Shown here: piece after piece, positions 33,605 through 55,430 of the stretch | How positions within the stretch are numbered: position 1 is the first letter of the stretch | Layout of the letters: each line of letters opens with the position of its first letter | Assembly: GCF_039655875.1 (NCBI RefSeq) | Contig: NZ_JBBYXK010000002.1 | Span: 124,001 to 188,000, forward strand | Source: Emcibacter sp. SYSU 3D8 | GTDB lineage: Bacteria; Pseudomonadota; Alphaproteobacteria; SMXS01 | Length of the DNA: 64,000 bases | Direction: 5' to 3' | Notes under the pieces: model-generated | What the model was told of the DNA's origin: nothing | The model's database searches: none | What the model saw: only the letters and a program-made list of their open reading frames with translations | Position numbers and translations under genes: made by a program

Positions 33605-33652
33605 TGGCGCTCCCTAGGGGACTCGAACCCCTGTTTTCGCCGTGAGAGGGCG
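33605..33652. repeat. Left attachment repeat (tRNA-Glu 3' fragment)
   Basis: This 48-base segment is identical to 55355-55402. It covers the tRNA from the anticodon stem through the CCA end, and the left neighbour sequence cannot complete a cloverleaf. It marks the left end of the element, 137 bases before the integrase start. Confidence 0.93.
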
Positions 33653-33789: not shown

Positions 33790-35115
33790 ATGGCCAGAAC
33801 GGTCCGAAACGCCAAGATCGACAGCCGCTCCGGACGCGCCGGGCTCAAGGTCCGGCACGAGCCCTACTGGACTGTGCTGACGGGTGGCCGGGCGCTCGGC
33901 TACCGGAAGGGCAAGGTGGGCACCTGGGTCGGCCGCTACCGCACCGAGCAGGGGGAGCGCTATCACAAGTCGCTCGGTGTCGCCGACGATGCGCTCGACG
34001 CGAACGGCGAAGACATCCTGTCATATGCTCAGGCGCAGGAGCGAGCGCGCGACTGGTTCAAGGACCTGGAGCGGCGGCTGACTCACGGCATCGCCAAGGA
34101 TCAGGTCTACACCGTCGGCCGGGCTTGTGACGACTACCTCAACTGGTTTGAAACCCACCGGAAGTCGCACATTCAGACGAAGAGCGTCATCGACCAGTTT
34201 ATCCAACCGGAGCTGGGCGATATTGAGGTCAACAAGCTCACCAAGAAGCGGATCGAGGAATGGCAGAGGCAGCGGACCAAGGATAAGGCCAGGGTCCGAA
34301 GCCGCCGCGGGGAGCCGCTCCAGTTCAAATCCAAGGACGATCCGGAAGCCGAGCGGCGCCGGAAAAGCACCGCGAACCGACAGTTGACGGTCCTGAAAGC
34401 CATCCTGAACCGCGCCTTCGATGATGCCAGAGAAACCGGCGTCTCGAGCGATGACGCCTGGCGAAAGGTGAAGCCGTACAAAGATGTTGAGCGCGCCCGT
34501 GTTCGGTGGCTCGCCGACGACGAGTTGTCCCGCTTCCTGTCGGCGGCGGCGAAGGTCGGTCACAACGAGGATCCGGGCCTATTCGAGTTCGCGAAGCTCG
34601 CGACGGGCGCGCTTCTCCTTGGCGCCAGGTATGGCGAGTTGGTCAAGGGCCGGGTGGCCGACTTCGACCCTGCTGCCGGCACGGTGTTCATTCCGGAATC
34701 GAAGTCCGGCAAGGCGCGGCATGTCGTGCTGACCGACGAAGGTCGAGAGTTCTTCACCGCGCTCGTTGCGGGTCGTCCGGGGGATGCATTGCTGTTTCGT
34801 GATGCGAGTGGCAATGCCTGGGGCAAGTCCCAGCAGGCGCGGCCGATCACCGAGCTTTGCGCCAGGGCCAAGATCGCCCCGGCAATAGGCGTCCATGCTC
34901 TTCGTCACACCTACGCCTCGAGGCTGGTTTCACGCGGAGTGCCCTTGATGGTCGTCGCGCAGCAGCTAGGCCACGCCGACACGCGGATGGTCGAGAAGCA
35001 TTATGGGCACCTCGCCCCGAACTACGTCACAGACACGGTGCGCGCCAACTTTGGCGAGTTGGGGCTCAAGCGGCCTGCGGTCGTGACCCTAGGCAGCGGG
35101 AGAACGTCAGCGTGA
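33790..35115 (+). CDS. int: Tyrosine-type site-specific integrase
   Basis: A 441-residue tyrosine recombinase that would insert and excise the element at tRNA-Glu. An arm-binding N-domain and SAM-like core-binding domain (about residues 108-190) precede the catalytic domain. Catalytic residues are seen in GARYGELVKG (Arg), ESKSGKARHV (Lys), HALRHTYASRL (His-x-x-Arg), QQLGHADT (His) and EKHYGHL (Tyr nucleophile). All are intact, so it may be active. Its stop overlaps the next gene's GTG. Confidence 0.95.
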   Translation: MARTVRNAKIDSRSGRAGLKVRHEPYWTVLTGGRALGYRKGKVGTWVGRYRTEQGERYHKSLGVADDALDANGEDILSYAQAQERARDWFKDLERRLTHGIAKDQVYTVGRACDDYLNWFETHRKSHIQTKSVIDQFIQPELGDIEVNKLTKKRIEEWQRQRTKDKARVRSRRGEPLQFKSKDDPEAERRRKSTANRQLTVLKAILNRAFDDARETGVSSDDAWRKVKPYKDVERARVRWLADDELSRFLSAAAKVGHNEDPGLFEFAKLATGALLLGARYGELVKGRVADFDPAAGTVFIPESKSGKARHVVLTDEGREFFTALVAGRPGDALLFRDASGNAWGKSQQARPITELCARAKIAPAIGVHALRHTYASRLVSRGVPLMVVAQQLGHADTRMVEKHYGHLAPNYVTDTVRANFGELGLKRPAVVTLGSGRTSA

Positions 35116-35906: not shown

Positions 35907-35998
35907 GACCAAGAGAGTCCCCACGCGGCCGTGTTTAAGTGTTTGCATTCGCCGAGTTTCTCCCTTGCTCGGCGAGTCACAACATGAGGAACACCGCC

Positions 35999-36190
35999 AT
36001 GAAACTCATTCACGTAAACGCCGTGTGCGGCAGGACCGGGCTGGGGCGCACGAAGGTCTACGAGCTCCTCAATGCCGGCCGGATCAGGTCCGTGAAAATC
36101 GGCGACCGTCGGCTGGTCGAGGAGGGTTCCGTCGACGAGTTCATCCAGTCGCTACTTGACGAACAGAACCCCGGCAGCAAGGCCGCCTAA
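35999..36190 (+). CDS. AlpA/excisionase-like HTH DNA-binding protein
   Basis: A 63-residue winged-HTH protein: VNAVCGRTGLGRTKVYELLN is the helix-turn-helix and VKIGDRRLVEEGSVDEFI the wing and trailing helix. AlpA-type proteins act as excisionases or activators of integrase in satellites such as P4. The ATG at 35999 has AGGA about ten bases upstream, and ATG 35984 is a possible longer start. Confidence 0.75.
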   Translation: MKLIHVNAVCGRTGLGRTKVYELLNAGRIRSVKIGDRRLVEEGSVDEFIQSLLDEQNPGSKAA

Positions 36191-36483: not shown

Positions 36484-36656
36484 CGAAGCACACTGACCAG
36501 CAAATGGGCAAACCGCCAGCCTGGAAGTATCCCACAACTCCGAAGCGCCGGACGCGGAAGTCGATCAAGACGTCGAGCAGATGTTGCCGGCCGAAGCGCA
36601 AGGTCGATGCCGAGCGGCGCCGGAAGCTTGCCGCCATCTGGGCCGGGAGTTGTTGA
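36480..36656 (+). CDS. Short basic hypothetical protein
   Basis: A 58-residue, very basic protein (runs such as TPKRRTRKSIK and KRKVDAERRRKLAA) that could bind nucleic acid. It overlaps its neighbours at both ends (ATGA with the gene before, TGATG with the initiator after), which is the main support for its being real. Confidence 0.45.
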   Translation: MTKHTDQQMGKPPAWKYPTTPKRRTRKSIKTSSRCCRPKRKVDAERRRKLAAIWAGSC

Positions 36657-37570
36657 TGCTCGACGAGGCCGAGGAACGCAAAGGCTATTACCGGCGCAAG
36701 CTGGAATTTGTCGAACGGATGGCGAGAGACCACGAACTGAACGCCGCCGCCTTGCGGGTTGGGATTGCCCTTACGTCTTTTGTAAATTGGTCGCGCGGCT
36801 ACGCTTGGCCCAGCCTGGAACTCCTCGCAGAGCGAACCGGTCTCGCTCGGCGGTCTGTAATAAGGGCCATCGAGTTGCTCGTCAGGCATCGATGGTTCGA
36901 GGTAGAGCGGCCGGACGATGGTCGATACTCGACCAACAATTACTGGCCTTGCCTGGACCGAGAGAACCTTAGGCAGACGGCGGAGGAGGAAGAGAACCCA
37001 GGCGCAGCCAGCAGTGACCAATTCGTCACCTCTGATGGGCCGGCGGCAGGGGTGACCAATTCGTCCGGCAGGGGTGACCAATTCGTCATTTCAGGGGTGA
37101 CCAATTCGTCCGGCAGGGGTGACCAATTCGTCACCCAACCTGTAGAAAGACCTGTTGAAGCTACCTGTTTAAAAGAGCAGGCCGCTGACGCGGCATTTAC
37201 AGGGGATTTTCAGGAAGAAGAACGCAGGCCAAGACCGAAGCCTCCCTCCGCTGAGAGCGGTATTGCCCGAGCAGCGGACAATGTAGTTCTGCTGCACCGA
37301 AACAGCGAAGACGCCGGGGACGATATTAAGCGGGAACTCGACCTGGCCAGTCGACCAGACGCGCGTGAGGCACTTACGGCCTGGGCACAACTCACTGTGG
37401 ACCTCGCCGAGATGGTTCTGGATAGAGCGACGCTGCTGCAACGTCAGATCCTCGCCCAAGCGTATCGAAGCTATGACGAGGGCAGAGTGCGAGAAATCTA
37501 TCACCAAATCTCTTGCGGGATGCCGGATGCGGGCCTCCCGGCCTTCCCCCAACGCAAACCCCTTTTTTGA
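36656..37570 (+). CDS. Replication initiator-like HTH protein containing iterons
   Basis: A 304-residue protein. Residues 8-100 form a winged-HTH of the HTH_36 type (SLELLAERTGLARRSVIRAI) typical of phage and plasmid initiators. Residues about 120-160 are encoded by iteron DNA and read as repeats of VTNSSGRGDQFV. The C-terminal third (ARPDAREALTAW-like region to the end) is helical, perhaps for helicase contact. The layout parallels lambda O: DNA-binding domain, origin-encoded linker, partner domain. The ATG at 36656 follows GGGAG and overlaps the previous stop. Confidence 0.75.
   Translation: MLDEAEERKGYYRRKLEFVERMARDHELNAAALRVGIALTSFVNWSRGYAWPSLELLAERTGLARRSVIRAIELLVRHRWFEVERPDDGRYSTNNYWPCLDRENLRQTAEEEENPGAASSDQFVTSDGPAAGVTNSSGRGDQFVISGVTNSSGRGDQFVTQPVERPVEATCLKEQAADAAFTGDFQEEERRPRPKPPSAESGIARAADNVVLLHRNSEDAGDDIKRELDLASRPDAREALTAWAQLTVDLAEMVLDRATLLQRQILAQAYRSYDEGRVREIYHQISCGMPDAGLPAFPQRKPLF
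37014..37132 (+). repeat. Five iterons inside the initiator gene (candidate origin)
   Basis: GTGACCAATTCGTC occurs exactly at 37014, 37052, 37074, 37097 and 37119. Copies 2-5 are 22-23 bases apart, about two helix turns, and each is preceded by GGG. The unit is nearly a palindrome about AATT. This is the pattern of initiator-binding iterons. Confidence 0.85.
37138..37174 (+). other. Three 12-13-mers next to the iterons (candidate unwinding region)
   Basis: ACCTGT recurs at 37138, 37150 and 37163, each followed by an A/T-rich tail (AGAAAG, TGAAGC, TTAAAA). The spacing of 12 and 13 bases recalls the 13-mers of DNA unwinding elements, placed directly after the last iteron. Confidence 0.6.
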
Positions 37571-37583
37571 GGATCACCCTCAC

Positions 37584-37844
37584 ATGAGCGACGACCAAAC
37601 AAACGACGAGATCCTGATAGGCCACTTCGAAAAGAACCGGGTCGAGGACGTCCGGGCGCGCTTCTGCACCTACCACGGCAGGCGCTATCTGGACATCCGA
37701 GCCTTCGCCACCAGCAATGCCACCGGCGAGCGGGTGCCGACGCGGAAGGGCATCGCGCTCGATCCCGACAAGCTCGAGGAACTGCGCGACTTGGTCGACC
37801 TGGCGATCGAGGCGCGCGACGGAGGCCGACATGCTGCTGGATGA
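37584..37844 (+). CDS. PC4/p15-like single-stranded DNA-binding protein
   Basis: An 86-residue protein whose segment FEKNRVEDVRARFCTYHGRR, then YLDIRAFATSNATGERVPTRKGIAL and a final helix (DKLEELRDLVDLAIEA), matches the PC4/p15 fold of bacterial YdbC-like proteins. These dimers bind single-stranded DNA. Placed right after the initiator and origin, it may act in replication or recombination of the element. The start at ATG 37584 fits the usual family N-terminus. Confidence 0.75.
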   Translation: MSDDQTNDEILIGHFEKNRVEDVRARFCTYHGRRYLDIRAFATSNATGERVPTRKGIALDPDKLEELRDLVDLAIEARDGGRHAAG

Positions 37845-39017: not shown

Positions 39018-39914
39018 ATGACGAGAAGCCTGTTTGCAGAGAGAGACGGCGGGCCAGCTGTGGCCCCTATTTCGCCGCGGCGGGAACTCGGGGCATACGA
39101 GGCGCTGTGGCTTGAGGACGGCGCAAGTTTCAAGACCATTGCTGAGCGCTTCCAGCGCGATCCCTCTGCGCTTCCCGGCGACTTCGTCAGCCACCAAGAG
39201 GCAGATGCCCGCGCTGGCGAGGTGCTGGATATCCTGAAGACGGCTGGTGTGCATCAGTTCGGCGTCAGGATACATCACGCTGGCGACTACCCGGCCAAGC
39301 TCCGCGACGCGAAATATCCTGTCGAGATGCTGTACTTTCAAGGCACCTGGGAACTCTCGGAGACCCGTTGTGTCGCGGTGGTAGGGAGCCGGGAGGCAAC
39401 AGACGAGGGTAAGCGCCGGGCAGCGCGCCTGGCAGCGGAATTGGTCAGGAAAGACTTCACAGTGGTCTCTGGCCTTGCGACCGGGATTGATACCGCCGCC
39501 CACCAGGCCGCGCTTGAGCAGGGTGGCCGCACCATCGCGGTAATCGGTACGCCGTTGGGCACCTACTATCCGCGGCAAAACCGCGAACTCCAAGACCGGA
39601 TAGCGAATGACTTCCTCCTGATCTCACAGGTGCCGGTTCTGCGGTATAAGGCCCAGGCGGTGCCCCAGAACAGGCTGTTCTTCCCTGAGCGTAACGTCAC
39701 GATGAGCGCGCTAACCGAGGCCACGATCATCGTCGAGGCCGGCAACACCTCCGGGACGTTGACCCAGGCGCGGGCGGCGCTTCACCAGGGCCGGAAACTA
39801 TTCATCCTCGATTCCTGCTTCGAGCGGACGGATATCACCTGGCCGGCGCGTTTCGAGAAGGAAGGTGCTATACGCGTTCGGACCCCAGACGACATCTGGG
39901 CTGCCCTTGGCTGA
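39018..39914 (+). CDS. DprA-like protein (ShosA-like, candidate antitoxin)
   Basis: A 298-residue protein with a DprA/Smf Rossmann domain: VAVVGSREATDEGKRRAARL, VSGLATGIDTAAHQAAL, IGTPLGTYYPRQN and a late NTSGTLTQARAAL. Canonical DprA loads RecA on incoming DNA. In the ShosTA system a DprA-domain protein (ShosA) neutralises a phosphoribosyltransferase toxin (ShosT). The next gene here is a phosphoribosyltransferase and the two overlap, so I read this as ShosTA-like. The C-terminal winged helix of chromosomal DprA is absent. GTGAGGC precedes the ATG. Confidence 0.8.
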   Translation: MTRSLFAERDGGPAVAPISPRRELGAYEALWLEDGASFKTIAERFQRDPSALPGDFVSHQEADARAGEVLDILKTAGVHQFGVRIHHAGDYPAKLRDAKYPVEMLYFQGTWELSETRCVAVVGSREATDEGKRRAARLAAELVRKDFTVVSGLATGIDTAAHQAALEQGGRTIAVIGTPLGTYYPRQNRELQDRIANDFLLISQVPVLRYKAQAVPQNRLFFPERNVTMSALTEATIIVEAGNTSGTLTQARAALHQGRKLFILDSCFERTDITWPARFEKEGAIRVRTPDDIWAALG

Positions 39915-40572
39915 TCCGCTTCGCCTCAGCCTGATCGACGACGGCAACCGGGGCGACCACTCGCACCTGACCGCGCAGGATACCTGTTACTACCTCCGCG
40001 AATACACGAGCCACGCCGGCTTCGCGGCAGGCGCGACAAACAACCTGATCTCCAACCTGAAGAAGAAGCCCAGCGAGAGCCACAGACCAGGATTCCATTA
40101 CAAGGCCCGCGCAGTCGCCGAATGTACCCGCGATCTGGCCTCGGCGTTGAACCCCGAGTGGCTCGACAATGCGACGCTGGTGCCGGTCCCCAGCTCCAAG
40201 GCGCGATCCCATCCCGATTTCGACGACAGGGTGACGCGGATTTGCAGGGGCATCCGGCCGGGTAACATCGATGTGCGGGAATTGGTCGTTCAAGATGCGT
40301 CGATGATTGCCTCCCATGAAGCCGGTTTCCAGCGGCATACTATCCAGGACCTGCTTGCGGTCTACTCGATCGATGAGAGCCTGGTGAACCCTGAGCCAAA
40401 GGCAATCGGAATCGTCGATGACGTGCTCACCGCTGGCACGCATTACCGCGCCATGCACACCGTCCTCAGCAACCGCTTCCCCAGCGTCTCGATTGTCGGA
40501 GTGTTCATCGCAAGACGGATTTTTCCGCCGCAGGTCACGCTCCAAGACCTGCTGGCACGACAGAAGAAGTAG
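39865..40572 (+). CDS. Phosphoribosyltransferase-domain protein (ShosT-like, candidate toxin)
   Basis: A 235-residue protein with a type I PRTase fold. The PRPP loop is AIGIVDDVLTAGTHYRAMHT and a ComF-like VPVPSSKARSHPDFDDRV precedes it. N-terminal residues 20-70 are family specific (TAQDTCYYLREYTSH). Paired and overlapping with the DprA-like gene, it resembles ShosT, whose expression is toxic. The start is uncertain: GTG 39865 lies close behind GAGAAGGA, while TTG 39907 would shorten it by 14 residues and keep a small overlap. Confidence 0.78.
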   Translation: MLYAFGPQTTSGLPLADPLRLSLIDDGNRGDHSHLTAQDTCYYLREYTSHAGFAAGATNNLISNLKKKPSESHRPGFHYKARAVAECTRDLASALNPEWLDNATLVPVPSSKARSHPDFDDRVTRICRGIRPGNIDVRELVVQDASMIASHEAGFQRHTIQDLLAVYSIDESLVNPEPKAIGIVDDVLTAGTHYRAMHTVLSNRFPSVSIVGVFIARRIFPPQVTLQDLLARQKK

Positions 40573-46103: not shown

Positions 46104-47279
46104 CTATAGGGGTTCGATGGCGGCAAAGTGCCCACCGCGCCGAACGGACTTGACCGCACCCATTCCCTCGAGCGCGGCAACGGGGTCCACATCCGCCAGG
46201 CGATCGAAGTCGATGCGGCACCACGTCTCTCGGTCCACCCGGACAGCCAGGATGTAGACATCGACCACAGCGCCGGTTGCCGGGTCAGGTCGCTGCACAT
46301 AGGCGGATGCTGTCAGCCGGTCTAGCGTCGCCATGGTGGCGAAGGCCTCGCCGATGACGCGGAACAAGGTGCCGTGCGCGAGGCGCGCGAAGTCCCGCCT
46401 GATCTGGGCGTCACTGCGTTCCTTGAACGTCACCTTGAACCCCCGGCCGGCAACAGACGCGATCTTGCGGGGTATGTCGTCTTCGTCGGGGAGGTCGACG
46501 TCGAGCTGCAGCGATCTCCCGTCTTCGGAGAGGTCGAAGTCGACGAGCGTCTCCTTTGGCCAGGCGATTTGCCCCAGCGCAGCCGTGAACAGCTTCTCCA
46601 TGGCGTCGGGATCGCCGCGCTCAAGCCGGCCCAGCAGTGCGAGCCAGTCGGCCGCATCCTCGGCGTGCTTCTTCAATCTTCCCTCCCACGTCGTCAGAGC
46701 TTCGGAATGCTGGCGCTCGGCAATGAAATTGGAGGCTTCGATATCGGCGCGTCGGCCCAGGAGCTTGTCGAACCAGGTGATGCCTCGGAGAACCGGCGCG
46801 GCGGGGCGCGGCTCGCCGAACGCATCGAGTTGACGGAACCGTGGCAGGCGGGGGTCGGGTGTTGAAAGGTGGATATCCACACAGCAGGTGTAATCGGCGT
46901 TGAGTTCGTCGACCTCGGCCTGAAGCCACTCTGAAAGCTTGTCACCCTGCTGCTCCCTAGCGGCCTTCACCAGCCGCGCAGGTGCTTCGGCGCCGTCGGC
47001 AGTCAGAAACCTCACCGAACCGTCGTCATGCAGTTCAAGACGCATCGGCACACTGGTCGTTTGGGCAGCGGGCGAACGCGAGCGCCGCGAAGATGGCGAG
47101 TCTAGCCGCTGGCGATAGGATAGGCCTGTGCCAGGGATGCCAGCGTTTCCGTAGATACCCTGCCGCCCCAATGTCACCGATGCGCCACGCGGTCCAGCCG
47201 ACAAGCTGGCACCTCGCATCCCGAAGTTTAGACGGACGCCAGGCATGAGGCGGACGCTGCGCCGGAACCTAAGCCCCAT
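46104..47279 (-). CDS. DUF4236 domain protein
   Basis: A 391-residue protein. Residues 1-55 are a DUF4236 domain: MGLRFRRSVRLMPGVRLNFG, then SLSAGPRGASVTLGRQGIY and GTGLSYR. The rest is a soluble body of unknown function, with an acidic beta-rich segment (DFDLSEDGRSLQLDVDLPDE). The role of the family is unknown. The start at 47279 follows GGAGGCTGTC; a much longer open frame upstream is rejected. It is divergent from the nuclease gene. Confidence 0.78.
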   Translation of the reverse strand: MGLRFRRSVRLMPGVRLNFGMRGASLSAGPRGASVTLGRQGIYGNAGIPGTGLSYRQRLDSPSSRRSRSPAAQTTSVPMRLELHDDGSVRFLTADGAEAPARLVKAAREQQGDKLSEWLQAEVDELNADYTCCVDIHLSTPDPRLPRFRQLDAFGEPRPAAPVLRGITWFDKLLGRRADIEASNFIAERQHSEALTTWEGRLKKHAEDAADWLALLGRLERGDPDAMEKLFTAALGQIAWPKETLVDFDLSEDGRSLQLDVDLPDEDDIPRKIASVAGRGFKVTFKERSDAQIRRDFARLAHGTLFRVIGEAFATMATLDRLTASAYVQRPDPATGAVVDVYILAVRVDRETWCRIDFDRLADVDPVAALEGMGAVKSVRRGGHFAAIEPL

Positions 47280-47436
47280 GACAGCCTCCGGCCGGAAGCA
47301 AGGCGGTCGTGGCAGTTTGGATGAAAACAGGCATGAACATGTTGACCTCCCCCAATATGGGCGGAGCATAGCACAGAGCGGCCGCGCGCCAACTGACGGC
47401 GGCGGTCCGCTCGGCTTGAAGCGTCTGGAGGGTGCA

Positions 47437-47925
47437 ATGAGGTGGATATGGGCGGCTGCTCTGATGGTCCTGTTTTCGTCGCCCGCGGCATTGGCGGACG
47501 TCCGTGTCCATGACGGCGACACCATCACGCTCGATGGCACCAAGATCCGCATTGCCGCTATCGACGCACCGGAATTGGACCAGAAGTGCGCCACCGAGTC
47601 CGGCCGGTGCATGCCCTGCGGTGCCGTCTCCAAGGGCTATCTGTTGAGCCTGTTGGCAAAGGGCGCACCGGTCTGTGTCCGGATCGACACCGACCGTTAC
47701 GGCCGCGCCGTCGCCACGTGCACGGTCAATGGCCGGGATATTGGCGAGGCCATGATCCGGAGCGGCAATGCCGTGGCTTACACCCGGTATCTGGTGGGCG
47801 ACCAGGCGAGGCGCTATCCGGCGGCCGAAGCCGCGTCTAAGAAGGGCCGTCGCGGAATCTGGGCCGGCAGGTACGACATGCCGGAGCGGTGGCGCCGAGG
47901 CGAACGCATTAAGTGCGAGAAGTAG
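47437..47925 (+). CDS. Exported thermonuclease (staphylococcal nuclease-like)
   Basis: A 162-residue protein with a signal peptide (MRWIWAAALMVLFSSPAALA) and an SNase domain. The catalytic strand VHDGDTITLDGTKIRIAAID has the Asp and Arg residues of the calcium and phosphate site, then APEL and a later DRYGRAVATC with a second Arg. It would degrade DNA or RNA outside the cytoplasm. GGAGGG precedes the ATG; an open frame to 47245 overlaps the divergent gene. Confidence 0.87.
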   Translation: MRWIWAAALMVLFSSPAALADVRVHDGDTITLDGTKIRIAAIDAPELDQKCATESGRCMPCGAVSKGYLLSLLAKGAPVCVRIDTDRYGRAVATCTVNGRDIGEAMIRSGNAVAYTRYLVGDQARRYPAAEAASKKGRRGIWAGRYDMPERWRRGERIKCEK

Positions 47926-48421: not shown

Positions 48422-48892
48422 CTACTGCCGGCCGTCGTCGGCGCGCTTCATCGACTTCATCACGTCAAGATGAGCCTGGCCGATGCTGATATTGATGCTG
48501 GGCCCGCCGCGCTCCCCGAAGTTGGCCGGATCGAGCATGCCGGCATACCACTTCCTGGTTTCGATCCGGAGCTTGTCCCGCTGAACCTTCACCGTGTTGG
48601 GCCGCGTCGTCCCGTCGTCGACATAGCTGTCCTTGTCCTCGGCGTCGGCGATGGCCTGGCACTCGTCGGCAAGCGCCGCGGCACGGAGCCGTTTGGCTTC
48701 GGCGAACCGCTCCTTGTTCTCGGGTGAGTTCAGGAACCGCTGGATCGAACTCTTGCCGACATGGTGCGCGTCGGCGAGCTGCTGAAAGGTCAGGCCACCG
48801 GCCCACTCGGTGAGTAGGGCGTCGACACCGACGGCCTCGAGGCGGGCCATGGCCGAGCCGGATTCCGTTGCCGGGCTGAGGTCTGTGTTCAA
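48422..48892 (-). CDS. Phage terminase small subunit-like protein
   Basis: A 156-residue protein. An N-terminal HTH, LTFQQLADAHHVGKSSIQRF, and the stretch YVDDGTTRPNTVKVQRDKLR, then RKWYAGMLDPANFGER, match small terminase subunits that recognise packaging sites. The start is TTG at 48892, chosen because GGAGG lies seven bases upstream and the codon overlaps the previous stop as TTGA. No large terminase subunit follows. Confidence 0.75.
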   Translation of the reverse strand: MNTDLSPATESGSAMARLEAVGVDALLTEWAGGLTFQQLADAHHVGKSSIQRFLNSPENKERFAEAKRLRAAALADECQAIADAEDKDSYVDDGTTRPNTVKVQRDKLRIETRKWYAGMLDPANFGERGGPSINISIGQAHLDVMKSMKRADDGRQ

Positions 48893-51800
48893 GGTATTAC
48901 CTCCATGAGCCGACGCTGGGCGTCATTGAAACGGGCGGCAGCAGCTTCGGGATCGGCGCTCGGGAATGGAGCCTTCGCGATGGGGAGGGGCGTGCTGGTG
49001 TAATTCTTGATCCCCAGCATGTGGCGCTGGGCGTCGGTCAACTTGGTAGCATCGACCGGCACCGCTCCATCCGGCATCCCGGCGGCGCGGCGCCGGCCGA
49101 CGCTGTAGTCCGTGGGATTCAGCACGGACTGTTCGCGGTCCTCCACAGCCCCCAGCGCGGCTCCGGCTGTCCAGGCATTGGGCCTGTCGGGCTCGATGCC
49201 AACGCCAAACTTGAAAGTCTTCGCCGCCAGCTTTCTCAGCGTCAACGGATCCGGGTTCTGCATCGTAGCGGCCAGATCCTTGGCAACCTCGGGGTCGAAC
49301 AGCGCCTTCTGCCAGAGGTCGTCCATCTGCCTCTTGGTCCGACCACGAACGAAGTTCATCGCGCCTTCCATCGCCGGATAGATCTTTCCGACGCGGCCGG
49401 ACTGTATGGCGTAGAGGCGTGTGCCGATCTGCGGCAGCTTCATGCCCAACGCATCCTCAGCCGCCCGGAACGGCACCTGTTGCGGGGCGGCGCCGCCGGG
49501 CTTGGGCAGTCGGTCGGCCATGGCGCGGGCGTCAGCGATGAACCTGGCATTCCTCAGATGCTCCGCCGAGAAGATCAGCCCAAGGGCCTTCTGGTTCTTG
49601 TCCAGGAAGGTGATTGTGCTTCTCGGATCGTCGAAAGGGATACGCTGCCATACCGCCGCCCGGAGGCCGTCCAACGCGGCCTTGTCGTCACGGACACGGC
49701 TCCGCAGCTTCATCGCCAAGCCCGGGTTCCGGACGGCCTCGTCGATGAGGGAGTCGGCAGACTTGGCCCCAGCCTCGACGCTCGCCAGCTTACGCTCCAG
49801 GACGTTCCGCTCGACCACACGCGCCCTGTCCGCAAGGGTCTGCTGCCGCGCCAGGAGGAGCCGGTCGGTACTTCCCACATCCTCGACGAGAGACCGCAGG
49901 TAGGGCATTTCAGAGAGCATGGAATCATGCTGGCGAACCCAAGCCGAATATCTGGCCGGGTCGATCACGCCATCCCGCACCGCGGCCTTGCGCAGGCTGT
50001 CCAGCGCCACACTTTCCAGCGCTTCGACACCTCTGACATACTCCGAACTCGCCGGATCCATGCCCTGCAGCGCCTTCGTGAATGAACGCAAGCCAGTGAC
50101 GTTGTTCGGTTTCCACAGATCGGAGGCCATGGCCTCATCGCTGAGCTTGCGGAAGCCTTCATTGTCGCGGGCGCCAAAGCTGCGCACGTCGGGCTGGCGG
50201 AAGGTCTCGATGACCTGATCTCTGTAGTCCTTCCGGAACGCGTTCCACCGCTCGGCAAGGTTCTGGTCACTCGTCCGCAACTCGGTGTTGACGATCATGT
50301 CGTCGAAATCGCGCAGTAGCCGCGAGAGGGTCGATTCCTGCATTCGGTCGGCCGGATTGCTCGACTTCTGGCTCACGTTCAGATCGTCGACGATTCGCTC
50401 CCGCAGGGCCTTCACGTCCTGGAACCGGACGGGCTGGCGAGCGGCGTCTTCCGCGCCATATCGCACGATTGCGTCCAACACCTTGGGACGATAGCTGGGG
50501 TTATCGAAGGTGCGCGGCGCATAGGTGTCGGCGACGCGCTGCTGGAAGCCCCGGAAATCGAGGGTGACATCGGCCGTGTTCAGCCCCTCGGCGATGGCCC
50601 GCTGGTTGAAGTGGTCGCGAACCGCCCGGCGCGTATCGTTTAGCGCGGCGCGCATGTTCTGGCCGGCCTGCACCAGATCGACGGACGGCACGTTACCGGC
50701 CAGCACTTCCCGTTCCGCCCGCTTCTGCGCCTGCTCCCGCTGCAGCTTGTCGGCGATGGCCTTGCTGCGAACCTGGGCGCGAGCGGCAACGGCTTCGGAG
50801 GACAGAGACGACACCGGGGCCTGCGTTTCGGCAAAGGTATCGATCGCCCGGTCCTGGGCGTCTCGCCGCTTCCTGGCGGCCTCGAGAGTGGGGCCGGTGA
50901 TGCGCTCGTCCAGATCCTTCTGGGCAGCCATGAGGGCAGGGGAGCCGGTACGCTCGGCGAGGGACAGCTCCATGCGGTCAGGACTGCCAGAGCGTGCCGC
51001 AGCTTCGTTCACTGCCCTCTCTACTTCACCGGAACGTGCAACCTCTTGCTGATAGCGCGGAAGCTCCTCGCCCAGCGTCTGGCCGACCATCTCTCTGGCG
51101 CGGGATGTCGCGGCTTTATCCGAGACGGTCGGGGCCAGAGTGCGTGCCAGTCGGCCGGCCATGAAGGTCGGCGAGAAGAACGCCGCAGCGGACAGGCCGG
51201 TGGGCGTGGCAATGGCGCCGATCATCTCTCCGGTGTCGCCGCCGACCTCCTGCCCAATACCACCACCAAGGCCGGAGACGGCCGAGAGCCCGGTTTCAAC
51301 AGCGGCGGTCCTGACGGGCGCCTGCATGGTGCCCTTGAGCATGTTCTGGCCGACCTGGCCCATCACCGTGGCGGCATCCACCGGTGCTGTGGCGTAGGAC
51401 GCCGGCTTGGCAAGCCCCATGACCTGCGGAGCGGCGACGAAGGGGAGGGAAGCACCGATGTATTCACCCGTCTTGGCCGCGACACGTTCGGCCGCGTCCC
51501 GGGGCTCAGGGGCATCGCCCAGCCGGTCGCCGATACTGCTCAGCGCGCGGTCGATCTGACGCCCGCCGGCGGACTCCAGGACAGGCTCAAGCGCCTGGCT
51601 GACCATGGGGCGCATATCGACATTGCCTTGCAGGCCCTTACCCGAAGTCATGTCCTCTAGCGCGCCCTCAGGGTCGCCAATGATGCGCCCCTGCGGGGCG
51701 ATGAAGCTGTTGACATAACTATTGGCCAGCGCCACCGGAATGCCGCCAATAGCGTCTTTCGCATGCCCGAGGCCGCGCCAGATGCCCGCGGGAACCTGCT

Positions 51801-51996
51801 GGGCAACGCTGAGGACGTCGGAGCCTTCCTGCGGTACGCGCTCCGGATTGGTGATCTGGACCTCGACCTTCTGGTAGAAGTCGGCCCGCGTCATGCCGGT
51901 CTGGGCGTAGTGCTTCCGGTACAGCGCATCCGCCAACTCCTGGTCGGGAACGTCGGCGTATGCAGGGTTCTGCTGCTTGAAGTTCTTGATGTTCAT
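48889..51996 (-). CDS. Large virion protein, likely internal/ejection protein
   Basis: A 1035-residue protein. The N-terminal 50 residues (FKQQNPAYADVPDQELADAL) are a motif found at the start of many phage internal virion proteins. A Gly/Ala-rich hydrophobic part follows (about 190-290). Long charged helices occupy residues 360-470 and 690-780. It is in the terminase-to-virion run with ATGA overlaps both sides. The ejection role is inferred from architecture and context. Confidence 0.68.
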   Translation of the reverse strand: MNIKNFKQQNPAYADVPDQELADALYRKHYAQTGMTRADFYQKVEVQITNPERVPQEGSDVLSVAQQVPAGIWRGLGHAKDAIGGIPVALANSYVNSFIAPQGRIIGDPEGALEDMTSGKGLQGNVDMRPMVSQALEPVLESAGGRQIDRALSSIGDRLGDAPEPRDAAERVAAKTGEYIGASLPFVAAPQVMGLAKPASYATAPVDAATVMGQVGQNMLKGTMQAPVRTAAVETGLSAVSGLGGGIGQEVGGDTGEMIGAIATPTGLSAAAFFSPTFMAGRLARTLAPTVSDKAATSRAREMVGQTLGEELPRYQQEVARSGEVERAVNEAAARSGSPDRMELSLAERTGSPALMAAQKDLDERITGPTLEAARKRRDAQDRAIDTFAETQAPVSSLSSEAVAARAQVRSKAIADKLQREQAQKRAEREVLAGNVPSVDLVQAGQNMRAALNDTRRAVRDHFNQRAIAEGLNTADVTLDFRGFQQRVADTYAPRTFDNPSYRPKVLDAIVRYGAEDAARQPVRFQDVKALRERIVDDLNVSQKSSNPADRMQESTLSRLLRDFDDMIVNTELRTSDQNLAERWNAFRKDYRDQVIETFRQPDVRSFGARDNEGFRKLSDEAMASDLWKPNNVTGLRSFTKALQGMDPASSEYVRGVEALESVALDSLRKAAVRDGVIDPARYSAWVRQHDSMLSEMPYLRSLVEDVGSTDRLLLARQQTLADRARVVERNVLERKLASVEAGAKSADSLIDEAVRNPGLAMKLRSRVRDDKAALDGLRAAVWQRIPFDDPRSTITFLDKNQKALGLIFSAEHLRNARFIADARAMADRLPKPGGAAPQQVPFRAAEDALGMKLPQIGTRLYAIQSGRVGKIYPAMEGAMNFVRGRTKRQMDDLWQKALFDPEVAKDLAATMQNPDPLTLRKLAAKTFKFGVGIEPDRPNAWTAGAALGAVEDREQSVLNPTDYSVGRRRAAGMPDGAVPVDATKLTDAQRHMLGIKNYTSTPLPIAKAPFPSADPEAAAARFNDAQRRLMEVIP

Positions 51997-53441
51997 TGGA
52001 ACAGACCCAGCGGGTCGTTTGTAGGCACGGTGCCTCCGTTACCGAGGCTCATGGGATCGCCGGACTGTGGCGCCATGACGGCTCCCCGGGGGTCGACGGC
52101 GAGTGGCCTGCTGCGAATCTGCTGCAACCACTGATAGATTTCGACCAGCCGCTGCCGGGCCTGCTCCGTTGAGGTGAACGGACCCCCACTCGGCAACAGG
52201 CTCTCGATGCGCCTCACGTCCGCTTCCGTGGTTCTTTTGTCGCTTTTCAGCGCGGCGATCAGATCCTGCCTCAAGGTCGCGATGTCGACGCCGACCTGGT
52301 CGGATTCCTTCTGGTAGCCACCGACGAAGGGCGCGCCGACCGCGTTCCATGCCCGGCCCGCCGCCGTCTTGACGCCGATGCCCTGCTGCCAGACGTCGCT
52401 GGCAAGCATGTCCCTGACCCGCGACGAAGCCAGATCGATCTGGTTGTTCTCCTCCGCTCGCTCCTGAGCCAGCTTCGGCGGGACATGACCTTGGGCAGCG
52501 GGCGACGGTGCGGCCTCGCTCTGGGCCTGCCCAGCCTGTCCACCGCCGTCAGGTACCCCGGGGACTGTCGTGCCGGGCGCGGTCTGGGCGTTCGGTCCCG
52601 CCAGATTGAGCTCATATGGCCGGCCAGCGCTGTCGACGCCGACCTCGATGCCGCCGTAGGCAAGGCCCTGGGCACGCTGAGGATCGACGCCCTGCTGGAT
52701 CAGGTAGTTGTAGCGCTGCTCCGCGACCGTGGGCTGGCGGGGGTGTCGGGGCTCGACGTGGGCGGGCTGGCCGTAGGCATCCGACGGCCGGGCCCAGACC
52801 ACCTGGCCGTCGCGGACGATCTTGACGGGCGTGCCTGCCTCAGGGTCCGGGGCCTTGACGCCGCCGATGCCAATGGTCTGCGTCGGGTCCAGCCGGTCCG
52901 CGGCGACGCGCATCTGGCGGCCCGATGCCGGGTCATAGGCGTCCTGGAACTGCCAGTCGGGCGCGATGCCTGCGGTGTCGACTTGACTGGCTCGCATCCA
53001 GTTCAGCATCTCCGGCGACGGCCGGCCTCCTGCCGGGTTGTAGCCGAGAAGGGTCTGCTGTGCCGTGTTCAGCGGCGACAAGCCGCCATCAGGCGAGAGA
53101 ACGCTGCCTGGCGTTACCGGCGCGGCGGCGTCGGCCGCATTGCCCATGGCCTGCTGGTCCATGCCGGTAGCTGCGCCACCACCTTGTCCCATGATGCTGT
53201 TCGGCGGCATGTAGCCGCTCTGCTGCACCAGCGCCTTCTGGTTCTCGTTGAGCGCGTCCCAGCCCGCGACGGCGAGTTGCCGCGCCGCGCGCTGTGCTTC
53301 CGCGTCCCGCTGGCTCGCGAATTTGTCGATGAGCCGTTCCCGGTCGTTCGACACACCGCCTTGCAGCGCCGCACCGATATCCCGGAACCGGGCTTGGCGA
53401 AGCAGGCGCCGCTGGTCTTCGTTGAGCGTTTCCAAGTCCAT
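51993..53441 (-). CDS. Virion-associated hypothetical protein
   Basis: A 482-residue protein rich in Gln, Ala, Gly and Pro. It starts MDLETLNEDQRRLLRQARF and repeats a similar NENQKALVQQSGY motif near residue 66. The C-terminal 100 residues are helical (GVDIATLRQDLIAALKSDKR). It lies between two virion-type genes, one base after the previous stop and overlapping the next start (ATGA). The function is not known. Confidence 0.62.
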   Translation of the reverse strand: MDLETLNEDQRRLLRQARFRDIGAALQGGVSNDRERLIDKFASQRDAEAQRAARQLAVAGWDALNENQKALVQQSGYMPPNSIMGQGGGAATGMDQQAMGNAADAAAPVTPGSVLSPDGGLSPLNTAQQTLLGYNPAGGRPSPEMLNWMRASQVDTAGIAPDWQFQDAYDPASGRQMRVAADRLDPTQTIGIGGVKAPDPEAGTPVKIVRDGQVVWARPSDAYGQPAHVEPRHPRQPTVAEQRYNYLIQQGVDPQRAQGLAYGGIEVGVDSAGRPYELNLAGPNAQTAPGTTVPGVPDGGGQAGQAQSEAAPSPAAQGHVPPKLAQERAEENNQIDLASSRVRDMLASDVWQQGIGVKTAAGRAWNAVGAPFVGGYQKESDQVGVDIATLRQDLIAALKSDKRTTEADVRRIESLLPSGGPFTSTEQARQRLVEIYQWLQQIRSRPLAVDPRGAVMAPQSGDPMSLGNGGTVPTNDPLGLFQ

Positions 53442-53442
53442 G

Positions 53443-54945
53443 TCAGTGCCCCACCCTGTTCATGAGTTGCCGGATCAGGAATTTCAGGACCGGCTTGTCG
53501 GCGATCCATGCGGCGAAGCGTTCGCCGTGCCGGAGATAGAGATCGCGGAACCATGCCGGCGCAGTGCTGAACAGCCAGGCGCGGACACGGAGCCATTCCG
53601 GATTGTCGGCGCCGTAGACCTCGCGGGCGACCCAGCAGCCGCCGAGCATGCCCATGAACTTGCCGGCGTTGTCCATGGCCATGCCGTCGTTCTTGAGCCG
53701 CATCGCCTCGACTTCGAACAGGCCCTGCGTCGGGCGGGTCTCAGTCTGCACGAGCTGGCCGGTCGCACTCTGCAGGATGCCGAGTTGCGCGGCCGGGTGA
53801 CCGATCTTCCGCAGGAACTCGAGGTATTTCTCATCTTCCATTTTCTGCTGGATGCTCTGGGTGAGGGAGCCGGCCTGCACCGCTGCCGTACCGGCGTCGA
53901 GCTTGATCCGGCTCTGGTCCGCTCCGAAATCCCCGAGCAGCCCAGCCGCCGTGACGCCCTGTTGGTTCGCGGTCAGCCCCGCCGCCTGGTTCACCTTCAG
54001 CGCCTCAAGTCCAGACGCCGCATTGCCCTGCGACGCGGCATTGGCCGCCGCCATGTTGGCCGCCGCCGCCGCCTGTTCCATCTCGGCGTTGCGGGCGCCG
54101 GTGTTGAACAACACGCTCTGGTTGGTCTTCGCGGCGTCCTGCGAATAACCGGCCTCGGCCAATGCCGCAGCCTGCGCCGCAGCCTGATTGCGGGCCTTCG
54201 CTTCCTGGTCCATGCCCAGCAGGGAGACATCGGCGCCCTGGTTGGTCTGGTCCGCCGACAACTTCCGGTTCGCGTCCTGCATGATCAGCCCGGAGGCGGT
54301 GTCGTAGCCCCTGTTGTAGAGATCGGAAACAGTCGTGCCCAGCGTGCGGTTGAACATGTCGTTGGTCTGGGCGTCGACCACCGCCTGACGGGAGCCACCG
54401 AACGCGCCGGCCTGCACTGCCCTGGCATTGTCGACGCCCCGCTGCTGTTCCCGCTGGAAGGCGAGATTGTCCATCACGGACCCGACCACGTTCTGCAGAT
54501 AGGGGTTCATGTAGGCCCCCATGTCGTAGTCCAGGAACGTGTCGGCGCCGACCTGGCCCACCAGTGAGCGATCTACGCCGCTGACGTCCGCGACCGGGGC
54601 AACCGTGGCGCCGAAGATCCCCTGCACCGGAGCGATGGAACTGGCGTTCATGGTGGCGGCCGTCATGGTCGGCGCCGTGATCTGAAGAGGCGAATAGGAC
54701 GCCTTCTGCTTCGCCAGATCGATGGCGGCGTTGATCGCGCTGGCGCCCGCCGCTGGGGCGGAATTGATGGTCGAGATGCCCCCCGTGATCGTGGAATTGA
54801 CCGGCGCGACCCTCGTTTCCTCATAGGGTGTAAACGGAATGGCGGCCGTCTTCTTGGCCTCGTCCAGCATGCCCAGCAACGCCTTCTGCGCGTATTTGGG
54901 TGTGCCCCCGCCCTTCTTGCCTCCGAGAAATCCGAGGAGGCCCAT
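53443..54945 (-). CDS. Phage virion protein with CWVAREVYG C-terminal module
   Basis: A 500-residue protein. The N-terminal part (GFLGGKKGGGTPKYAQKALL) and Ala/Gln-rich middle resemble podovirus head or ejection proteins. The last 75 residues, GGCWVAREVYGADNPEWLRV and following, form a module I recall from many phage tail and virion proteins of marine and soil phages. Its start overlaps the stop of a ribbon-helix-helix gene (TAATG). Confidence 0.7.
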   Translation of the reverse strand: MGLLGFLGGKKGGGTPKYAQKALLGMLDEAKKTAAIPFTPYEETRVAPVNSTITGGISTINSAPAAGASAINAAIDLAKQKASYSPLQITAPTMTAATMNASSIAPVQGIFGATVAPVADVSGVDRSLVGQVGADTFLDYDMGAYMNPYLQNVVGSVMDNLAFQREQQRGVDNARAVQAGAFGGSRQAVVDAQTNDMFNRTLGTTVSDLYNRGYDTASGLIMQDANRKLSADQTNQGADVSLLGMDQEAKARNQAAAQAAALAEAGYSQDAAKTNQSVLFNTGARNAEMEQAAAAANMAAANAASQGNAASGLEALKVNQAAGLTANQQGVTAAGLLGDFGADQSRIKLDAGTAAVQAGSLTQSIQQKMEDEKYLEFLRKIGHPAAQLGILQSATGQLVQTETRPTQGLFEVEAMRLKNDGMAMDNAGKFMGMLGGCWVAREVYGADNPEWLRVRAWLFSTAPAWFRDLYLRHGERFAAWIADKPVLKFLIRQLMNRVGH

Positions 54946-55354: not shown

Positions 55355-55402
55355 TGGCGCTCCCTAGGGGACTCGAACCCCTGTTTTCGCCGTGAGAGGG
55401 CG
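55355..55402. repeat. Right attachment repeat (3' part of tRNA-Glu)
   Basis: Identical to 33605-33652 over 48 bases; the copies first differ at 55403 (A here, G on the left). It is the tRNA 3' end from the anticodon stem to CCA. Confidence 0.93.
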
Positions 55403-55430
55403 ACGTCCTGGGCCACTAGACGAAGGGAGC
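55355..55430 (-). tRNA. tRNA-Glu (anticodon CUC)
   Basis: A 76-base gene with CCA encoded. The acceptor stem GCTCCCT pairs with AGGGAGC. The anticodon stem TCGCC/GGCGA carries loop CTCTCAC, with anticodon CTC at 55396-55394. The T-arm reads AGGGGTTCGAGTCCCCT. It is intact because the element's insertion restored its 3' end. Confidence 0.96.

Follow-up and report, generated by a model that had tools for sequence, protein, structure and literature searches.

The 64,000-nt stretch of Emcibacter sp. SYSU 3D8 DNA analysed here (the window) contains an open reading frame (ORF 36656-37570) with a helix-turn-helix domain and a set of short repeats in its middle. The question raised by this locus is whether the gene encodes a replication initiator and at the same time contains the origin on which that initiator would act, as had been proposed in a preliminary description of the DNA, where the arrangement was likened to the lambda O design.

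Iteron array and adjacent repeats

The gene call is sensible, as GGGAG is located shortly upstream of the ATG. The earlier claim of five exact copies of GTGACCAATTCGTC in the middle of an HTH initiator ORF was confirmed by repeat search and by the HTH domain match (Table 1). All five are on the + strand, and they represent every exact occurrence of the 14-mer in the 4.07-Mb genome, each within the array 37014-37132; with up to three mismatches, 14 matches were obtained in the window, a number reached by none of 100 shuffles. Start-to-start spacing was 38, 22, 23 and 22 bp, and the 22-23-base spacing first described thus applies to three of the four gaps, the first (38 bp) being the exception. 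Similarly, the proposed near palindrome about AATT was found in the two outer copies, iterons 1 and 5, which match themselves on the reverse strand with two mismatches, and was weaker in the inner three. No DnaA box (TTWTNCACA) was found in the window.

Downstream of the iterons, the three ACCTGT repeats of the preliminary description were located at a spacing of 12 and 13 bp (span 37138-37168), and in 5000 codon shuffles of this stretch no 6-mer occurred three times at 10-14-bp spacing. The A+T content of the stretch was the maximum of the gene, yet only 0.48-0.50 per 60 bp.

The codon phases of the five iterons within the ORF were 1, 0, 1, 0 and 1. One and the same sequence thus encodes VTNS in some copies and DQFV in others, and reading it in the remaining phase would give a TGA stop. 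Because the copies alternate between two codon phases, selection on the iterons acts at the DNA level, and the 22/23 alternation consequently leaves the stop-bearing frame unused while the spacing stays near 22.5 bp. A 42-nt stretch of the array was duplicated exactly at an offset of 45 bp (15 codons), which suggests that the array may have grown by pairs of iterons, 15 codons per step, with the reading frame thereby kept.

Table 1. Coordinates of the initiator gene, its repeats and the surrounding island in the window.
Feature	Position	Strand	Evidence
Integrative element, ca. 21.8 kb, inserted in the 3' end of tRNA-Glu(CTC)	33605-55402		48-bp exact direct repeat
Attachment core, left copy	33605-33652		48-bp exact direct repeat
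Tyrosine integrase	33790-35115	+	Pfam Phage_integrase 5.5e-21; PHROG integrase 6.4e-51
Excisionase/AlpA-like HTH_17 protein	35939-36190	+	Pfam and PHROG matches
Replication initiator (predicted), 304 aa	36656-37570	+	HTH_36 2.3e-10; PHROG replication initiation protein 3.7e-9, O-like 1.9e-8
N-terminal winged-helix DNA-binding domain, codons 1-112	36656-36991	+	AlphaFold2 pLDDT mostly >90 to residue 100; Foldseek winged-helix matches
Iteron array (candidate origin), encoding part of the disordered linker	37009-37135	+	Repeat coordinates and AlphaFold2 model
Iteron 1, GTGACCAATTCGTC	37014-37027	+	Repeat search
Iteron 2	37052-37065	+	Repeat search
Iteron 3	37074-37087	+	Repeat search
Iteron 4	37097-37110	+	Repeat search
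Iteron 5	37119-37132	+	Repeat search
Three ACCTGT repeats (37138, 37150, 37163) with A/T tails, presumed unwinding element	37138-37176	+	0/5000 codon shuffles
C-terminal helical part, codons 199-286, presumed host replisome contact	37250-37513	+	AlphaFold2 model
PC4-like protein directly downstream of the initiator	37584-37844	+	Pfam PC4 1.1e-9
Attachment core, right copy, equal to the 3' end of tRNA-Glu (55355-55430)	55355-55402		48-bp exact direct repeat

Predicted initiator protein

The Pfam scan of the protein returned HTH_36 and two families under their cut-offs, and no RepA_N match at E-values up to 0.1. In the AlphaFold2 model, for which distant HTH relatives formed the input alignment, a confident winged helix extended to about residue 112, followed by a low-confidence region (residues ca. 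113-195) and helices at 199-286. The overall pTM was 0.42, and thus the mutual placement of the domains is not predicted. The iterons encode residues ca. 120-159 and the ACCTGT repeats residues ca. 161-171; since both fall within residues 113-195, it is the linker that the candidate origin encodes. Foldseek returned winged-helix proteins and, further down the list, the plasmid Rep/initiator structures 5kbj and 4pt7. No close relatives of the initiator were found in the viral, genome, phage or plasmid collections or in the order; the paired iteron pattern was absent from the genome and viral collections, and scans of the viral collection with the proteins of two relatives gave no matches.

The island and its sister element

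The initiator gene is carried by an element bounded by two attachment cores (Table 1). In the sister genome G004 the element is absent, and both island flanks adjoin tRNA-Glu. PHROG and Pfam scans of the element ORFs gave no structural virion match, three long ORFs at 48889-54945 having been scanned in this test with Pfam, PADLOC and NCBIfam only. Neither a helicase nor a P-like loader for one was recognised among the island genes; those downstream of the initiator are the PC4-like gene and genes without assignment.

The cargo includes a ShosTA defence system, with ShosA (PADLOC 6e-98) and ShosT (7e-47) side by side at 39018-40572. At 46104-47925, genes for a DUF4236 protein (-) and a Staphylococcal-nuclease-like protein (+) overlap at their ends. 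The three long ORFs at 48889-54945 (1035, 482 and 500 aa) are adjacent on the - strand, gave no matches to Pfam, PADLOC, NCBIfam or the sequences of the PDB, and possibly form an undescribed cargo or defence operon; their assignment as an efflux pump was dropped, being without Pfam support.

A second element was identified at the same tRNA-Glu in the sister genome G002 (L123, C92:1-14900), with identities to the window island of 46% for the integrase, 37% for the excisionase and 55% for PC4. Between its excisionase and PC4 genes, in the same slot as in the window, the G002 element has an HTH_36 initiator with no detectable pairwise similarity to that of the window (E = 0.61) and with palindromic in-gene repeats of its own around GTGTACCCCTGAAGGGGACAC, the sequence of which is unlike the window iterons. 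The difference between the two tRNA-Glu islands is most simply read as replacement of the initiator together with its origin, as one piece. When PC4 was used as an anchor for further related islands, one weak match was obtained.

In-gene arrays among HTH_36 relatives

The survey comprised HTH_36 matches found in two partly overlapping genome sets, one drawn from the class (385 genomes) and one from the phylum Pseudomonadota (398 genomes). In each ORF the region 3' of the HTH, of at least 100 nt, was searched (n = 93, window ORF included), and an array was called when at least three in-gene copies were present that were never reproduced in 40 codon shuffles per ORF. Arrays were found in 56 of the 93 ORFs, and in 53 of the 72 with a length of at least 205 aa. 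Iteron sequences vary between loci, with 121 of 181 gaps falling at 21-25 bp; 34 of the 56 arrays consist of significantly palindromic repeats, and in 40 the copies are spread over two or three codon phases. When the ORFs were clustered at 60% HTH identity, 39 groups remained, in which 74 of 116 gaps were 21-25 bp and 31 arrays were multi-phase. Three phases were used by none of the 21 arrays with a stop in one iteron frame, and by 10 of the other 35; the two-phase limit on stop-containing iterons holds, and appears to be largely forced by the open frame. At L044, L046, L067 and L090, 21- and 24-bp gaps replace 22/23, mostly in alternation (45 bp per two iterons) and mostly in a single codon phase.

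Homologues that keep the protein and have lost the DNA repeats had been named as evidence against an origin. Most relatives displayed the opposite, retaining the arrangement with different iterons; no array was detected in 19 of the 72 ORFs of at least 205 aa, and an HTH_36 domain is thus not by itself a sign of an in-gene origin.

A GAACC element after the arrays

In an initial set of 28 arrays, the 60 bp that follow the iterons had a higher A+T content than the gene in 26 cases, and 11 loci had pairs of GAACC 10-13 bp apart, where codon shuffles predict 0.12. In a hold-out set of 28 arrays fetched later, such pairs were present in 9 loci (0.10 expected), and no other permutation of the GAACC letters was paired in more than three loci of either set. 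About a third of the relatives have the repeat; by non-redundant groups, 12 of 39 had the pair. Within 19 loci the AACC core occupied more than one codon phase, which makes the repeat a DNA feature. Repeats of (G/A)AACC every 10-13 bp just after the array, in varying phase, are seen at L030, L048, L049, L051, L054, L094, L096, L103 and others. In the limited set of literature searched, no description of the element was found.

A profile of GAACC repeats from 23 other loci did not detect the ACCTGT repeats of the window, which for this reason is not claimed as a member. ACCTGT pairs were found in none of the 55 other survey arrays, and the CACCC-AACC junction at the end of the window array is common to nine other loci. 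The ACCTGT repeats are possibly the counterpart of the (G/A)AACC of the relatives, at most in a diverged form. We consider the chances evenly balanced that a second element, conserved in sequence, is common to the HTH_36 in-gene origins: (G/A)AACC would recur at intervals of 10-13 bp immediately behind the iterons peculiar to each replicon, would be kept as DNA across codon phases and would be read by something common to the replicons, the window having a diverged form (ACCTGT, 12-13 bp). The iterons differ between replicons, but the GAACC element does not, and its reader would therefore be common to them; candidates are the host loader and some conserved region of the initiator that would work on the strand once it is open.

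Comparison with known systems

In lambda O (ori-lambda), in the Stx phages, and in P22 and L gene 18, iterons are likewise found in the middle of the initiator gene; in these phages an A/T-rich stretch comes right after them. The O genes of lambda and Stx phages are functional precedents for an in-gene origin (PMC7466680), and the in-gene repeats of lambda, P22 and L differ from one another (PMC8022706). When measured by the survey procedure, lambda gave a spacing of 20, 24 and 23 bp and three codon phases. Unlike in lambda, the carrier in the window is an island without detected virion genes, and the iteron sequence differs from that of lambda O. The lambda O design claimed at first stands as far as the plan is concerned and fails as a lambda copy, since pairwise comparison detected no similarity to lambda O, and none of the island genes was recognised as a counterpart of P, the loader in the lambda O-P pair. 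The window gene is best read as lambda-O/RepA_N-like in plan.

The likeness to RepA_N concerns the pSK41 Rep, a further functional precedent, which similarly has an N-terminal DNA-binding domain, a central origin-encoded linker, a separate C-terminal domain and boxes inside rep (PMC5703833); its origin-encoded linker is dispensable, and its C-terminal domain contacts primase (PMC5703833). The AlphaFold2 model together with the repeat coordinates gave the same three-part gene plan for the window initiator, which differs in having no RepA_N match, other iterons and an island host that is not Gram-positive.

Initiator-like HTH genes with in-gene repeats were also present in Rhodobacter phage Jorvik (gene 02, spacing 22 and 23 bp) and in Stenotrophomonas phage CUB19 (gp48, in which AACC repeats then follow), their similarity to the window protein being weak and confined to the N-terminal domain (33-35%, E about 0.02-0.03).

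Like the window island, in which the replicon is predicted, phage-inducible chromosomal islands (PICI) have an integrase, an excisionase/AlpA-like gene and their own replicon; in contrast to PICI and PLE satellites, no packaging or interference gene was recognised in the window island. PLE has a RepA_N initiator and semi-palindromic iterons (PMC7145576), its repeats being non-coding whereas those of the window are in-gene, and in Gram-negative PICI origins, which also differ from the one proposed here, an A/T region next to pri-rep has a set of iterons on either side (PMC6092414). Paracoccus plasmids with an HTH_36 Rep have predicted iteron-like oriV repeats, one of which overlaps the rep start codon (PMC3832669), and so HTH_36 alone does not settle the location of the origin.

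Discussion

ORF 36656-37570 is very probably the replication initiator of the tRNA-Glu integrative island, with the origin inside the gene. This reading, put forward in the preliminary description, is supported by the HTH_36 and O-like matches, the two-phase iterons, the adjacent repeat of highest A+T content, and the arrangement in most distant relatives. As far as sequence can tell, the case comprises the repeats, their codon phases, the domain plan, the arrangement in relatives and the apparent module replacement at the island site. The lambda-type layout is already known from phage lambda and some plasmids and is common in related genes; what the window adds is a further clear case of it rather than a different type of system.

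Once the island is excised, the N-terminal winged helix would bind the five iterons, which are imperfect palindromes, and would probably do so in dimeric form. Wrapping of the array may strain the adjoining, A/T-richer ACCTGT repeats and lead to their opening, presumably by melting, and the C-terminal part together with host proteins would then load the replicative helicase. Binding domain, sites and opening element are contiguous, and for this reason initiator and origin would move or be replaced as one module.

Winged-helix folds are mostly those of transcription factors, and palindromic sites suit a dimeric regulator, so that the array could be an operator by which the protein regulates downstream genes or itself, with no origin present. 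This is very unlikely: the PHROG matches are replication initiators, the array is placed in-gene beside a second repeat of helical period as in known in-gene origins, and the arrangement is common to most long relatives; moreover, binding could serve regulation and replication alike. There is likewise only a slight chance that the array is a former in-gene origin of an island that has stopped replicating, since the ORF is intact, the five iterons are exactly identical and the attachment sites and integrase frame are intact, against which stand an opening element that has diverged from the GAACC repeats of the relatives and is only about 50% A+T, and the lack of a recognised loader in the island. 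That the repeats are merely a protein-level linker enlarged by slippage or unequal crossing-over, without a DNA role, is scarcely credible even with a linker predicted to be disordered and a 45-bp unit duplicated exactly and in frame, for the same 14 bases give different peptides in two codon phases, 40 of 56 survey arrays occupy more than one phase, and gaps concentrate at 21-25 bp regardless of sequence.

With an initiator gene predicted to contain its own origin, the known range of lambda-type in-gene origins would come to include an integrative island with defence cargo. Some of the computational results may surprise specialists, namely how widespread the layout is, the spacing by which one frame is avoided, and the conservation of the GAACC repeats. 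The GAACC repeats and the spacing that avoids the stop frame lead to testable predictions on origin opening and evolution, and the pair of islands at one tRNA suggests that initiator and origin may be exchanged as a unit. According to the survey, the in-gene layout is common among HTH_36 initiators in Pseudomonadota, and the origins of many uncharacterised prophages and islands may therefore be readable directly from the initiator gene.
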